From Mycoplasma elephantis ATCC 51980 (GTDB taxonomy: Bacteria; Bacillota_I; Bacilli_A; Mycoplasmatales; Metamycoplasmataceae): a stretch of 64,000 bases of DNA. Below, piece after piece: positions 2,593-50,358 of the stretch (position 1 is the first letter of the stretch; each line of letters starts with the position of its first letter). The DNA is taken from contig NZ_JHXU01000001.1 in the NCBI RefSeq assembly GCF_000687815.1, positions 1 to 64,000 of the forward strand, in the 5' to 3' direction. The notes under the pieces were generated by a model. That model made no database searches, was not told the origin of the DNA, and was given only the letters and a program-made list of their open reading frames with translations. Made by a program: the position numbers and the translations under genes.

Positions 2593-3453
2593 TTATATTA
2601 TAATAAAATCATTTTCTTTAATTAAATATGTATTATCTTTTAGTTTAAATGATGATGTAGAGATTTTAGAATTTATAAATTGTATTATTGATTTTAATTT
2701 ACTTGACGATAATTTTAAGTTAGAATAATTTTTATGTAAAAAAGTAAATAAAACCTCTTCCTTGTTAACTAAATTTGCAAAATATACACAACTATATTTT
2801 TGCTCCTTTCAAGCACTTAATTCTAACAATATTTCATCATTTTTTTTAATTCGATTTTCATTTAATTTCAAAAATTTTTCAACGTTTTTGCTGAATTCTT
2901 CATCAGAAATGTTTTTTAAATTATTACGTATTTTATTTCTTTCATATATATCCAATTCATTGGTTTCATCAATACCATACTTTATATTTTTTTTGTCTAA
3001 TAAATTTATTATTTCTTTTTTTCTAAATTTGAATAAAAATGGTCTAATCACCTTCATTCCATAGATATTTGTTTCTTGTTTAATGCCATAATATGAGGGT
3101 GTTTTTTTAGCATTATATTGCATCAAACATGTCTCCAAAAAATCATCTAAATGATGCGCTGTCATTAACGTGTCACAATTTTCTTTATCATAAATTTCTT
3201 TAAAAAATTCATATCTTATATTACGGGCGCAATTCTGAAAATTGCTATTATATGTATAATTTTTGCCCATCTGTTTTACATACAGTTTTATATTATTTTG
3301 TTCACAAAACGACACCACTATTTCTTCATCACGTTTTGCTGATTCCCTTTTATTATAGTTAACGTGACAAACTACTATATTTCTATTTTTGTACATATTT
3401 AATAAAAACATAGAGTCTGGACCACCCGAAACAGCTAATAAAAACTTAGACAT
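2593..3453 (-). CDS. tilS: tRNA(Ile)-lysidine synthase TilS
   Basis: ATP-dependent enzyme that attaches lysine to C34 of the CAU-anticodon isoleucine tRNA so it reads AUA, essential in an AT-rich genome. 286 aa, near the short end of the family, so the C-terminal domains seem reduced. The PP-loop SGGPDS is at residues 9-14, and TAHHLDDFLET matches the family HHxDD motif. A UGA Trp near residue 214 would otherwise cut the protein. The start overlaps the end of pth by 8 bases; ftsH follows 27 bases downstream, so the three are probably cotranscribed. Confidence 0.93.
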
Positions 3454-4012
3454 TATTACCTTTTAATTTTTCATTGTAATTATTCATCGCTATATAAATA
3501 TCATTATAGATAAAACATAATATCGCATCTACATAAAGGTCTAATTTAGATTCAATTATTTTTAGATCTTCCGGAGAAAATTTTGATAGAACCCAATCCT
3601 TCATTTCGTATTTCGGATCTTTTCCTATCCCCAATTTTAATCGATTTAAAACATCAACTTTTAACATTTGCATAACGTTTTTTACTCCATTATGATTACC
3701 ATCACCACCTTTAACTTTAAGAATTGCCGAACCCACTTTTAAAGAAATGTCATCATGAACAATCAACACATCATCAGGACTAATATTGTAAAAATTACAT
3801 ATGTCCCTCACAAATTCTCCAGATAAATTCATAAATGTCTTTGGTTTAGCAATAATAAAATCATTTTGTTTTGAAAAAACACCATTAAATTTTTCTTTAT
3901 CAAACTCTAAATTATATTTTTTTGCAAACGCATCTAAAACAATAAAACCATAATTATGTCTTGTATAATCATATTTTTCTGCGTCATTCCCTAATCCTAC
4001 TATTAATTTCAT
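3446..4012 (-). CDS. pth: Peptidyl-tRNA hydrolase
   Basis: Frees tRNA from peptidyl-tRNAs that drop off the ribosome. 188 aa, the usual size. The N-terminus is MKLIVGLGN, followed by YTRHNYGF carrying the catalytic His, IVHDDISL with the assisting Asp, and KGGDGNHNGVKN. An upstream in-frame ATG at 4039 would add nine residues, but homologs start at the MKLIVGLGN methionine, so 4012 is preferred. The end overlaps tilS by 8 bases. Confidence 0.95.
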   Translation of the reverse strand: MKLIVGLGNDAEKYDYTRHNYGFIVLDAFAKKYNLEFDKEKFNGVFSKQNDFIIAKPKTFMNLSGEFVRDICNFYNISPDDVLIVHDDISLKVGSAILKVKGGDGNHNGVKNVMQMLKVDVLNRLKLGIGKDPKYEMKDWVLSKFSPEDLKIIESKLDLYVDAILCFIYNDIYIAMNNYNEKLKGNNV

Positions 4013-46956: not shown

Positions 46957-47949
46957 CTAATTATTTTTTTCGTATTTAATAAGTCTAGGATTATATGAAT
47001 AACCCCTACCAAATTTAGCTATTTCACTTCCATTAAGTTTCACTGCATCAGCACTAAAATTAATATTAATTTTTAAAATACTTGCCCCAACCCCGTAAAC
47101 ATCTACAGGTGTTTTTTGTTCTTCAAACATTTTAATTTTATTTGCATTAAAACCACTTGAAACAACAATTTTTACATGTTTACCGTCATTTTCATCAAGC
47201 GCTTTTCTTAATCTCTTTACTTGGTTTGGTGTTACACCATATTCATCTTCGTTATTAGTGAACATTTTATCCCTTACGTTTTGCGCAGTATCTATTCTTA
47301 GTGCCACAAGTTCTTTTCCAAAAGTTTTTAAAGCTTTTAATGAATCATCAATAACATTATTATTAAAATCAACCAATGCGGTAAGAGGTTCTTTAATAAT
47401 TTCCTTGTACGCTTTTAATGTTTCAATAATATCTCCATTGAACCCTTGAATTAAAATATGAGGAATAGTTCCTACCGCTAATCCGTTATGAAGCGCAACT
47501 TGTTCTTTTGTACATTGAGTGTCTATTCCACCTATGTGTGCTGCATAACCATCAAACCTTTGGACCAAATAATGATCTGCTCTATCACCCATAAAAACAA
47601 CATTTTTGTTATTAGCTACATCAATTATTCTTTTTGAATTAGTTGCAATACTTGAACCCCTAGCCAATATTCCATCAATCATTCCTTCATATATACCAAA
47701 ATCTTGATAGTGCCCTTCTAATTCGAGAACTACTTCTTTGTTGTTAATGATAGAACCATCTGGCAAATAACTAATCTTATATTTCTTTGTATCAGTTTCT
47801 TTTTCAAGTAATTCTAAAACTTCTTTTATTCCACACAAAACCACATTATCTTCTCGTTGAAAAAACTGAATTGTAACAATATTGTTTGGCTTCTTTTTCT
47901 CCAAAATCTTTTTTGTTTTAAAAAAGTATTCTGCTATATATTTTTTCAT
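46957..47949 (-). CDS. pncB: Nicotinate phosphoribosyltransferase
   Basis: First step of NAD salvage from nicotinate. 330 aa, the short form. Visible family segments: EGHYQDFGIYEGMIDGILARG, a GTIPHILIQG stretch, VDFNNN, ALRIDTAQNVRDKM, VVSSGFNANKI and VDVYGVGASI near the phosphate loop. The catalytic His likely lies in HIGGIDTQCTKEQV. It starts 16 bases inside the membrane-protein gene, so it shares the FMN-riboswitch transcript. Confidence 0.9.
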   Translation of the reverse strand: MKKYIAEYFFKTKKILEKKKPNNIVTIQFFQREDNVVLCGIKEVLELLEKETDTKKYKISYLPDGSIINNKEVVLELEGHYQDFGIYEGMIDGILARGSSIATNSKRIIDVANNKNVVFMGDRADHYLVQRFDGYAAHIGGIDTQCTKEQVALHNGLAVGTIPHILIQGFNGDIIETLKAYKEIIKEPLTALVDFNNNVIDDSLKALKTFGKELVALRIDTAQNVRDKMFTNNEDEYGVTPNQVKRLRKALDENDGKHVKIVVSSGFNANKIKMFEEQKTPVDVYGVGASILKININFSADAVKLNGSEIAKFGRGYSYNPRLIKYEKNN

Positions 47950-49055
47950 AATTTTAACTCCTCATTTTGATATCAACATAGTTTTTTATTTAAAAAATGA
48001 AATCCAGTAGCAAGCAACATAGGTAAAATGAATTGTAAACATAAAACATGTATCCACGATCAAATTTCACTATATCCCAGTTCAATTATTGTAAAAATTG
48101 GACCATATAATACAGCACTCCCCATTCCACCTAATACATAATTTTGATTTTTTTCTAAATTAAATTCACAAGGTAAAAGGCTTGCTAAAAATCCACAAAT
48201 CATAGATGCAAAACAAGGTAATATCAATAATTTCCAATTCTTTACATAATTATTCATATGAGTCATTGTGGTCCCAAAACTTGTGGAAATATAATAACTT
48301 ATGTTTTTGGTGCTAAGTAAAACTATAAAACCATAAGAAATCATTTGCGCTGTTGTTGCAGCTACAGCTATTGATGCGCCATATGAATTGAGATGAATTG
48401 AATAAGCGATAGATGCTGATGATATAGGTAATGTTAAAGCTAGCCCCATTATTAATCCTACTATTGGCGATAATATAATTCTTAATACATTATTAGAATT
48501 AACTGAATTAACAATTAATCACTCAATCCAAATCAAAATTAAATTACATATATATGTTAATCATAATGCATTAACAATACCTAAAGCAACACCAATTAAT
48601 GGTAAAACAAGAATTGAAAATGAATTATCAATATGTACAATATTAAAAAAGTAAATAATAATTACTGATGCTAATCAAGCACTAACTGCGTCACCAACAA
48701 TTTTTATATTTGTATTTATATTTATGGTTGAAACTTCATAAATAATATTGTTATTCACCACATCAAAAACCGGCTTTACAGAACTATTGGAAACAATAAA
48801 AGCACTCAATGAAATTGCTATTGTTTCTAATATACTTCTTTTATTCTTAATGCTAATCGCTAAACCTATTGCTAAAGGAGAAATAAATGACAAAAATATT
48901 TTAATTGAAACAAAAATATTTTCACTTGAATAACTACCAACCATACCAAATAATCCGCCTATAATCAAAGTGGCAAAAAATCCAAGACCTGTTCCAATCA
49001 AAGAATCAAACCATATTGTTTTATGGTTTAATTTAGATAATTTTGTAATATTCAT
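47934..49055 (-). CDS. PTS_EIIC_2-like membrane protein under an FMN riboswitch; candidate flavin transporter
   Basis: 373 aa, about nine to ten membrane segments, with UGA Trp codons. The pattern TLPISSASIA, AVAATTAQMISYGFI, FGTTMTHMNNYVKN and a Gly-rich VLGGMGSAVLYGP matches the PTS_EIIC_2 family (Pfam PF13303 by memory), which lacks a known substrate and needs no IIA/IIB partner here. The start at 49055 follows an AAGGAG site that lies inside the riboswitch output hairpin. Family members are usually called sugar PTS, but control by FMN suggests flavin or a related vitamin. pncB is cotranscribed. Confidence 0.8.
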
Positions 49056-49063
49056 AAATAAAA

Positions 49064-49083
49064 AACTCCTTTTAAAGAAGTTC
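49064..49083 (-). promoter_or_regulatory. Riboswitch output hairpin hiding the ribosome site
   Basis: AACTTCTTT pairs with AAAGGAGTT (one G-U pair), burying the AAGGAG site of the following gene, then TTTTTT. A competing pairing of TTCCTGA in the aptamer with TCAGGAA would free it. This fits an OFF switch acting at translation initiation, possibly also at termination. Confidence 0.6.
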
Positions 49084-49095
49084 CTGATGACCATA

Positions 49096-49226
49096 CACAT
49101 TGTGTAGAGACTATATTCAGACTTTACTGTCGGCACAGGAAATTAACCTGTTCATGCTCAAAGAGTACGATGGCTTTACATCCGGTTGGGGAACTAACCC
49201 AGTCAGGAAACTACAATCTTTGTGAC
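49096..49226 (-). ncRNA. FMN riboswitch (RFN element) aptamer
   Basis: Reading the minus strand, the conserved RFN blocks occur in order: TTCCCCAACCGG then TGTAAAGCC, GAGCATGA, CAGGTTAATTTCCTG hairpin, and GCCGACAGTAAAGTCTGAAT. The outer helix is formed by ATTGTAG near the 5' end and CTACACAAT at the 3' end. This is the FMN-sensing aptamer found before riboflavin genes. A TATAAT box lies just upstream, near 49234-49239. Confidence 0.93.
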
Positions 49227-49233
49227 TGCATTT

Positions 49234-49239
49234 ATATTA
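49234..49239 (-). promoter_or_regulatory. -10 box for the FMN-riboswitch operon
   Basis: TATAAT on the minus strand, with a TTAACT-like -35 about 15 bases further upstream, positioned to start transcription right before the aptamer. Confidence 0.55.
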
Positions 49240-49302
49240 TAAATAAAATCAAAAACAGTTAACCATAAAAAATTAAATCTTCGGTTTATAATTAAACACA
49301 TT

Positions 49303-50358
49303 ATGAAAAAAATTATCTTAATAGATTTTGAAGGTATCCAATCATACGGACTTTATATTCCATATATGTTCTCAATGGCAATTAAAAAGGATGAAAAAAC
49401 ATATAAAACTTTTACTAAATCAATTGATTTTAAAAAACTTAATTATAAAAATTGAAGCAAGTTAATGTTAGAGAAGATTGAAAATGTAGTTTTTAATGAA
49501 TTATCAATTAATTCGTGAAACGAATTTAATGATAAAGCAGAGTTTTATGGTTGGGCGCCCGCATACGAAAATAAAATTTTTAGAAATTTAAAAATTAGTA
49601 AAAATATTGTCGTAAAAGACATTAAAGATAATAATTTATTCAAAGCACCTTTGGCATTAAATATTCTTAAAAATAAAAAAGATAAAAATCAATTCCCAAA
49701 ATTTTATTCAATAATTTCCAATAAAAAAATTTTAGAATTATTCCCTGGATTGGCAAAATCTGAAATTAATAAAAAAATAATTGGAAATAATGGACACACA
49801 GCAAGTGTTTGCGGATATATTTATTGAAGACTTGTAAACAACGAACCAACTTGAAATTTCTTAAAAAAATACATTTCAAAGGAAGAAATTTTTAATGAGA
49901 TGAGAAATTATTCATATAGCGATATACAAACAATGATTTATGCATTTCAAATTAAGGATCAGTTAAATGCAAACATTAAACAAATTTGCAATCTCATCTC
50001 AACAAACGCCAAATTGGAAGAAACATTAAATAACGATAACTCATTATATAAAATATTAGATGCATTAAAAAACACTAAACACACCAATTTAACAAATGAC
50101 TATATTAAAATTATTAATAATTCCTCCATGAATGAAAACGAGAAAACTCTTTTAATCACATTTTTTACTACTATTTTTTCCATTAAAAAATTTGAAGACT
50201 TGAAACCTTGATTATCTTTAAATAATCAAAAAATTTTAGAGGAAAAAATTAAAGATAACTCAAATACCCTAATTAAAAATAAGCAGGAATTTAATAGTTT
50301 ATTAAGTAATCTTTATAATAATTTTAAAAAGCAAAACATCAAAATTATAATGTCATAA
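49303..50358 (+). CDS. Uncharacterised protein with DEDD exonuclease-like motifs
   Basis: 351 aa, soluble, with UGA Trp codons. The N-terminus LIDFEGIQ has a DxE like exonuclease motif I, FYGWAPAYENKIFRN resembles motif II, and NYSYSDIQTMIYAFQ resembles the YxxxD motif III; the last also matches the equivalent part of the DUF2779 protein at 26305-28203 (YCHNDVMAMLMAFD). The C-terminal 120 residues are helical and unassigned. A nuclease role is an inference from three short motifs. No clear ribosome site. Divergent from the riboswitch operon. Confidence 0.6.

Follow-up and report, generated by a model that had tools for sequence, protein, structure and literature searches.

A variant of the FMN riboswitch precedes a putative niacin-salvage operon in mycoplasmas and may sense a nucleotide of the NAD pathway

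We analyzed a 64,000-nucleotide stretch of the Mycoplasma elephantis ATCC 51980 genome (RefSeq assembly GCF_000687815.1, contig NZ_JHXU01000001.1, positions 1 to 64,000, hereafter the window), in which an RNA of the flavin mononucleotide (FMN) riboswitch type lies directly before a membrane-protein gene of the PF13303 (PTS_EIIC_2) family, followed by a nicotinate phosphoribosyltransferase (NAPRTase) gene. The main features of the locus are:

49236 to 49241, minus strand: probable -10 box TATAAT, read from the sequence.
49102 to 49216, minus strand: variant FMN-type aptamer, helices P1 to P6 (RF00050, 51.1 bits; variant model R1, 121.9 bits; covariation).
47934 to 49055, minus strand: PF13303 membrane protein, 373 amino acids (aa), candidate niacin importer (PF13303, E 4.4e-38).
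46957 to 47949, minus strand: NAPRTase, 330 aa (NF005529, 483 bits, cut-off 378).

The RNA at 49216-49102 matched RF00050 from end to end (model positions 1-138) with 51.1 bits and an E-value of 9.1e-11 when 501 bases were searched, or 3.4e-11 when the whole genome was searched. The match is far beyond chance and is the only one in the genome. Its score is below the gathering cut-off (66.2) because the RNA belongs to a distinct variant, and a default Rfam scan misses the element. When the region was scanned with Rfam, FMN was the one significant family and no NAD+ (nicotinamide adenine dinucleotide) riboswitch family matched. The initial annotation had placed an RFN aptamer here, on the minus strand after a promoter and ahead of a gene with the PTS_EIIC_2 pattern, and had proposed a covariance-model search. 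The aptamer, the TATAAT just upstream and the gene family are all borne out, the RF00050 search giving a full-length match that stays under the gathering score. A/T-rich -10 boxes recur at the equivalent place in most other loci with the variant, and a consensus scan for terminators and promoters was uninformative in this A+T-rich region.

The open reading frame (ORF) of the membrane protein starts at ATG 49055, with AAAAGGAG before it, and ends at 47934 (373 aa under genetic code 4). It matched PF13303 with 131.6 bits (cut-off 28.9) over profile positions 4-326 of 327. PF13303 was its only Pfam match, no NCBIfam model matched, and none of the solved structures matched it by sequence. In an AlphaFold model (pLDDT, the predicted local distance difference test, 89) the nearest solved folds found by Foldseek were the phosphotransferase system (PTS) EIIC components ChbC, MalT and glucose IIC (probability 0.91-1.00, E-values 0.016-0.13). 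The protein is thus similar to PTS EIIC sugar permeases in predicted fold, but these E-values are weak, and the gene has no nearby IIA/IIB and has a NAPRTase partner. We agree with the initial annotation that the protein is no recognised flavin transporter (no homology to RibU or RibV was found) and that it lacks an IIA/IIB partner (none among seven neighbourhood proteins scanned).

The NAPRTase gene, which had gone unmentioned, lies on the same strand and shares 16 bases with the end of the PF13303 ORF; the two are therefore very probably one transcript. This neighbour decides the interpretation, and we consider it highly likely that the locus is a niacin-salvage operon.

When 320 genomes of the order were searched with RF00050, 50 matches were found in 43 genomes, and they split into two sets. 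Sixteen, the window's included, share a characteristic sequence and are called the variant here; all 16 precede NAPRTase, either directly or through the PF13303 gene (G, C and L numbers are our labels for genomes, contigs and loci):

Variant RNA directly before NAPRTase: G074, G092, G124, G090, G087, G039, G037, G036.
Variant RNA before PF13303 and then NAPRTase: G000, G064, G066, G067, G070, G017, G016, G071.

In the eight genomes with the variant RNA on NAPRTase alone, no PF13303 gene exceeds the cut-off. Of the 320 genomes, 260 have a NAPRTase gene, in most cases with no variant RNA. The canonical FMN riboswitches examined precede RibU-type, RibV-type or riboflavin-synthesis genes, and five genomes (G016, G066, G067, G070 and G071) carry both types, one each. 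Two weak extra RF00050 matches (G016 C8:13687 and G240 C7:350) were set aside. The former (G016:C8:13687-13795, L050; 35.7 bits) is a second FMN-type element that lies ∼3.6 kb ahead of the canonical riboswitch and has no recognised gene of its own; the latter (G240:C7:350-461, L051; 31.7 bits) lies far from flavin genes and is possibly a chance match or a remnant.

A covariance model built from the 16 variants scored its members at 113-137 bits; no other sequence in the order exceeded 90.3 bits, and no variant-level score was obtained outside the order among 376 class genomes. Among the carriers are Mycoplasma marinum, Candidatus Mycoplasma mahonii, Mycoplasma procyoni and Mycoplasmopsis alligatoris. 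When the genome collection was scanned with a sequence pattern, the variant turned up in mycoplasma-type genomes only (five other matches were unsupported by the model). The pattern prescribes some of the P3 bases and could miss variants with a different P3 in distant phyla. Our literature search, which did not extend to the original papers on FMN variants and so could have passed over an earlier mention of a mycoplasma variant, found no description of this variant and no paper that mentions both the FMN riboswitch and nicotinate phosphoribosyltransferase.

The alignment of the 16 variants showed that the P1-P6 structure pairs 91.5% of cells, whereas slid controls, which preserve the relatedness of the sequences, pair 31-44%. 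Twelve pairs are changed on both sides. This level was reached in 0 of 500 shuffles, a figure that is no probability because the sequences are related. The junction fold of the FMN riboswitch is kept in the variant. The pocket was then compared between the 16 variants and 32 canonical riboswitches of the same order, with the following differences:

49205, minus strand: U for G10, a phosphate-coordinating G (variants, U in 15 and C in 1 of 16; canonical, G in 32/32).
49203, minus strand: A for G12, in the junction (variants, A in 16/16; canonical, G in 30 and A in 2).
49167, minus strand: U for A48, which stacks on the flavin (variants, U in 16/16; canonical, A in 32/32).
49117, minus strand: A for G98, which pairs with A85 under the flavin (variants, A in 16/16; canonical, G in 32/32).
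Just after 49117, minus strand: position of G101 deleted (16/16 variants).

The two sets agree at seven positions (G11, G32, G47, G62, G84, A85 and A99). In the canonical complex FMN is sandwiched by A48 and the A85-G98 pair, A99 pairs with FMN, and the phosphate is held by G10, G11, G32, G62 and G84 (PMC7573352, PMC7824784). The variant keeps four of these five guanines, with G10 replaced by U or C in 16/16, and in the flavin slot it keeps A85 and A99, with A48U and G98A in 16/16. Most of the phosphate site thus survives, as does A99, and the flavin slot is changed on both faces. The variant is like RF00050 in its six-helix fold, most core nucleotides and full-length alignment; it differs in its altered pocket, in the window's score below the gathering cut-off and in controlling niacin salvage rather than flavin genes.

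Two alternative explanations were rejected. An ordinary FMN riboswitch that scores low through A+T richness does not fit, since A+T-rich relatives have canonical ones that reach 78-120 bits and retain both A48 and G98. A decaying riboswitch does not fit either, given the covariation of the fold and the occurrence of identical changes in 16 genomes. The pocket bears on a third explanation, namely that the variant continues to bind FMN, if perhaps less tightly, and ties niacin salvage to flavin status, with PF13303 still a niacin importer. The overall FMN fold, A85, A99 and the guanines G11, G32, G62 and G84 are kept, and FMN-type aptamers sense FMN in most bacteria; A48 and G98, however, are invariant in the 32 canonical riboswitches and are changed in 16/16 variants together with the gene association, and the five genomes with both types keep an unaltered FMN riboswitch for flavin genes. 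We regard continued FMN sensing as unlikely, if still a serious contender, and think it likely that the ligand is no longer FMN.

The distribution of PF13303 points to niacin. Within the order the family is over the cut-off in 9 of the 320 genomes, and in 9/9 it adjoins NAPRTase. Eight of these genes have the variant RNA, and the ninth, in G068, has a variant RNA with an internal deletion (remnant, 25.6 bits). At this locus (L094:3397-3446) the middle of the variant is missing before an intact-looking PF13303-NAPRTase pair, through either a real deletion or an assembly fault. In G064, of the same genus as the window, the PF13303 protein (L033:4518-5492) is without homology in its last ∼60 residues, as after a frameshift.

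PF13303 is widespread outside the order, occurring in 126 of 326 class genomes. Among 107 outside loci, six adjoin a NiaR-type regulator with HTH_11 and 3H domains, the architecture described for NiaR (PMC5343564), five of them with the regulator directly upstream on the same strand; eight adjoin NAPRTase, five with it directly downstream on the same strand. These loci span six families, and their gene context is support, not proof. At locus L122 the NiaR is the protein at 886-1461, and the one at 2630-3154 is not NiaR. In a tree, the mycoplasma PF13303 proteins form one long-branched clade, and the NiaR and NAPRTase contexts fall on several other branches. Rfam scans of PF13303 loci elsewhere found only tRNAs and one distant fluoride riboswitch (L206:496-574, 43.3 bits), which lies ∼1.7 kb upstream of a PF13303-NAPRTase pair in distant Bacilli and probably belongs to another gene.

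On this gene context the PF13303 protein probably imports niacin. Known niacin transporters are NiaP, NiaX and NiaY, the last a NiaR-regulated candidate of Bacilli and Clostridia (PMC5343564, PMC6593275). They share the niacin context with the window protein, which differs in matching PF13303 only. NiaY might itself be a PF13303 protein, in which case a niacin role for the family was proposed in 2008 and only the riboswitch part is new.

The initial annotation had instead argued from FMN control to flavin uptake, with the PF13303 protein as a flavin transporter under an ordinary FMN riboswitch. Homology to the FMN riboswitch, a membrane-protein product and the expectation that a mycoplasma makes no riboflavin speak for that proposal, and yet it is contradicted by the variant pocket, by the overlap with NAPRTase, by the NiaR and NAPRTase genes adjoining PF13303 in distant Bacilli and by the eight genomes in which the same RNA controls NAPRTase with no PF13303 gene over the cut-off. 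The refuting conditions named with that proposal also turn out against flavin: the RF00050 score is under the gathering cut-off, in relatives a RibU-type gene has its own canonical FMN riboswitch, separate from the variant, and the window's genome has a RibU of its own (C7:7770-8381, E 2.5e-36 with a profile of the RibU proteins behind canonical riboswitches in the same family). This RibU gene lies beside ribF and divergent from it, and no FMN-type RNA was found near it. The flavin substrate is thus very improbable; what stands is a vitamin importer of the PF13303 family under riboswitch control, which is the best reading, with niacin as the most likely substrate. The divergent RibU and ribF genes without a riboswitch (L215:1714-2394 and 2911-3747, G000 C7) are unlike the arrangement in relatives of the same family.

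RibV of Mesoplasma florum (Mfl576) is a published candidate transporter of mollicutes (PMC4418817). As in the present case, a mollicute transporter gene follows an FMN-type riboswitch, but that riboswitch is canonical and RibV is not a PF13303 protein. RibV is presumably the 228-aa protein whose gene follows the canonical riboswitch in G159, a genome that we take to be M. florum L1; no Pfam match was found for close homologues of this protein. An assignment of the PF13303 protein as RibV was rejected on these two grounds, the canonical riboswitch before the RibV-type gene of G159 and the homologues without a Pfam match.

The leader of the operon contains the elements of a possible expression platform:

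49212 to 49230, minus strand: 5′ hairpin UGCAGUC/GAUUGUA, a competitor of P1 that uses the 5′ strand of P1 as its 3′ arm.
49203 to 49209, minus strand: UUCCUGA in junction J1-2, 5′ arm of an alternative (anti-sequestor) helix of 7 base pairs (bp) with 49087-49081.
49081 to 49087, minus strand: UCAGGAA, which forms the 3′ arm of the anti-sequestor helix and overlaps with the 5′ arm of the Shine-Dalgarno hairpin.
49064 to 49082, minus strand: sequestor hairpin, Shine-Dalgarno AAAAGGAG paired with AACUUCUU.

In the window, AACUUCUU pairs with AGGAGUU in the hairpin after the aptamer, and a comparable Shine-Dalgarno hairpin was observed in at least 11 of the 16 variant loci. The J1-2 strand (AGUUUC or UUCCUGA) can alternatively pair with the 5′ arm of this hairpin. 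Summed over the 16 loci the alternative helix comprises 97 bp, compared with 74.4 ± 3.7 in shuffled leaders, of which 0/200 were as long. The partner strand is present in G039, G037 and G036, where no clear Shine-Dalgarno hairpin was found. An arm competing with P1 can be drawn in many other variant loci and is absent in G090 and G087; this 5′ hairpin is statistically weak (its summed length was reached by 2/200 shuffles). From this anatomy we infer a translational OFF switch as the simplest mechanism.

If the ligand is not FMN, a nucleotide of the NAD pathway is the first candidate. The rebuilt flavin-ring slot, in a variant that retains the FMN aptamer fold and most phosphate-binding guanines, would probably bind a pyridine nucleotide, namely NAD+, nicotinamide mononucleotide (NMN) or nicotinate mononucleotide (NaMN). 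Contacts would be made by A99 and the inherited phosphate site, the residues that stack on the flavin having been replaced. NMN and NAD+ would be compatible with these conserved elements, whereas NaMN is what NAPRTase produces; we make no choice among them. When the ligand is scarce, J1-2 would pair with the 5′ arm of the ribosome-binding-site hairpin, and importer and NAPRTase would be made; when it is abundant, P1 and the aptamer would form, the hairpin would hide the Shine-Dalgarno sequence and the operon would be off. The PF13303 protein would most likely bring in niacin for NAPRTase. We rate as evenly balanced the specific proposal that an FMN aptamer was turned, in mycoplasmas, into a pyridine-nucleotide sensor (NAD+, NMN or NaMN) that regulates a PF13303 niacin importer. 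We lean somewhat more firmly towards the broader statement that a niacin-salvage operon of importer and NAPRTase is under an FMN-riboswitch variant acting as an OFF switch and probably sensing an NAD-pathway nucleotide.

Several points weigh against this interpretation. The 16 variants are all in one bacterial family and probably have one origin, so their gene associations do not count as independent cases. Since A85, A99 and most of the phosphate ligands persist, some residual FMN binding is possible. The position numbers rest on the F. nucleatum sequence, and the Rfam alignment gives the same differences. Part of J1-2 takes part in the alternative helix, so that the changes at G10 and G12, in or next to this strand, may have to do with switching instead of ligand choice; the A48 and G98 changes are not explicable by a switching role. 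For the importer, the NiaR/NAPRTase link outside mycoplasmas amounts to 14/107 loci, partly from closely related genomes, and at the outside PF13303 loci neighbours of other kinds (MatE, YchF-like) are just as frequent.

FMN-riboswitch variants with changed ligands (lumichrome, lumiflavin) are known from Clostridium and Atopobium (PMC11477304, PMC9788692). This precedent would favour a variant that senses another small molecule, e.g. a flavin breakdown product or a phosphorylated metabolite outside the NAD pathway. In C. difficile, however, such a variant is an ON switch before an efflux pump (PMC11477304), whereas only niacin-salvage genes are downstream here and the anatomy is OFF-like; we consider such a ligand improbable. 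The clostridial variants (Atilho, Perkins and Breaker, 2019) resemble ours in an FMN-derived aptamer with an altered pocket and a changed gene association. They differ in binding lumichrome or lumiflavin, whereas the window's type is found in mycoplasmas before NAPRTase. The mycoplasma variants show neither the Clostridium/Atopobium distribution nor the efflux-pump gene. The NAD+-I and NAD+-II riboswitches (PMC9971707) would be alike in controlling NAD-pathway genes, if the proposed ligand is right, but the window RNA matches no Rfam family significantly except FMN.

If the preferred interpretation, an NAD-pathway sensor controlling niacin import and NAPRTase, is true, it would (i) be a case in which riboswitch specificity has changed naturally between the flavin and the nicotinamide cofactors, at no more than a few pocket positions; (ii) add RNA-based control of NAD salvage for mycoplasmas; and (iii) provide a substrate for PF13303, a family common in Bacilli and now labelled as sugar transport. 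In a minimal-cell model the nicotinate importer is assigned only tentatively, to an energy-coupling factor (ECF) component (PMC6609329).

Upstream of the riboswitch a divergent ORF of 351 aa (window 49303-50358, plus strand) had no Pfam match above the cut-off and no NCBIfam match. Just past it is a 4′-phosphopantetheinyl transferase-type protein (ACPS; window 50987-50400, minus strand). After NAPRTase, at ∼200 bases and on the same strand, lie genes for a PhnD-like lipoprotein, a PhnC-type ATPase and a double-length PhnE-type permease (window 46756-42376, minus strand). Similar ATP-binding cassette (ABC) systems of mycoplasmas are linked to thiamine uptake.
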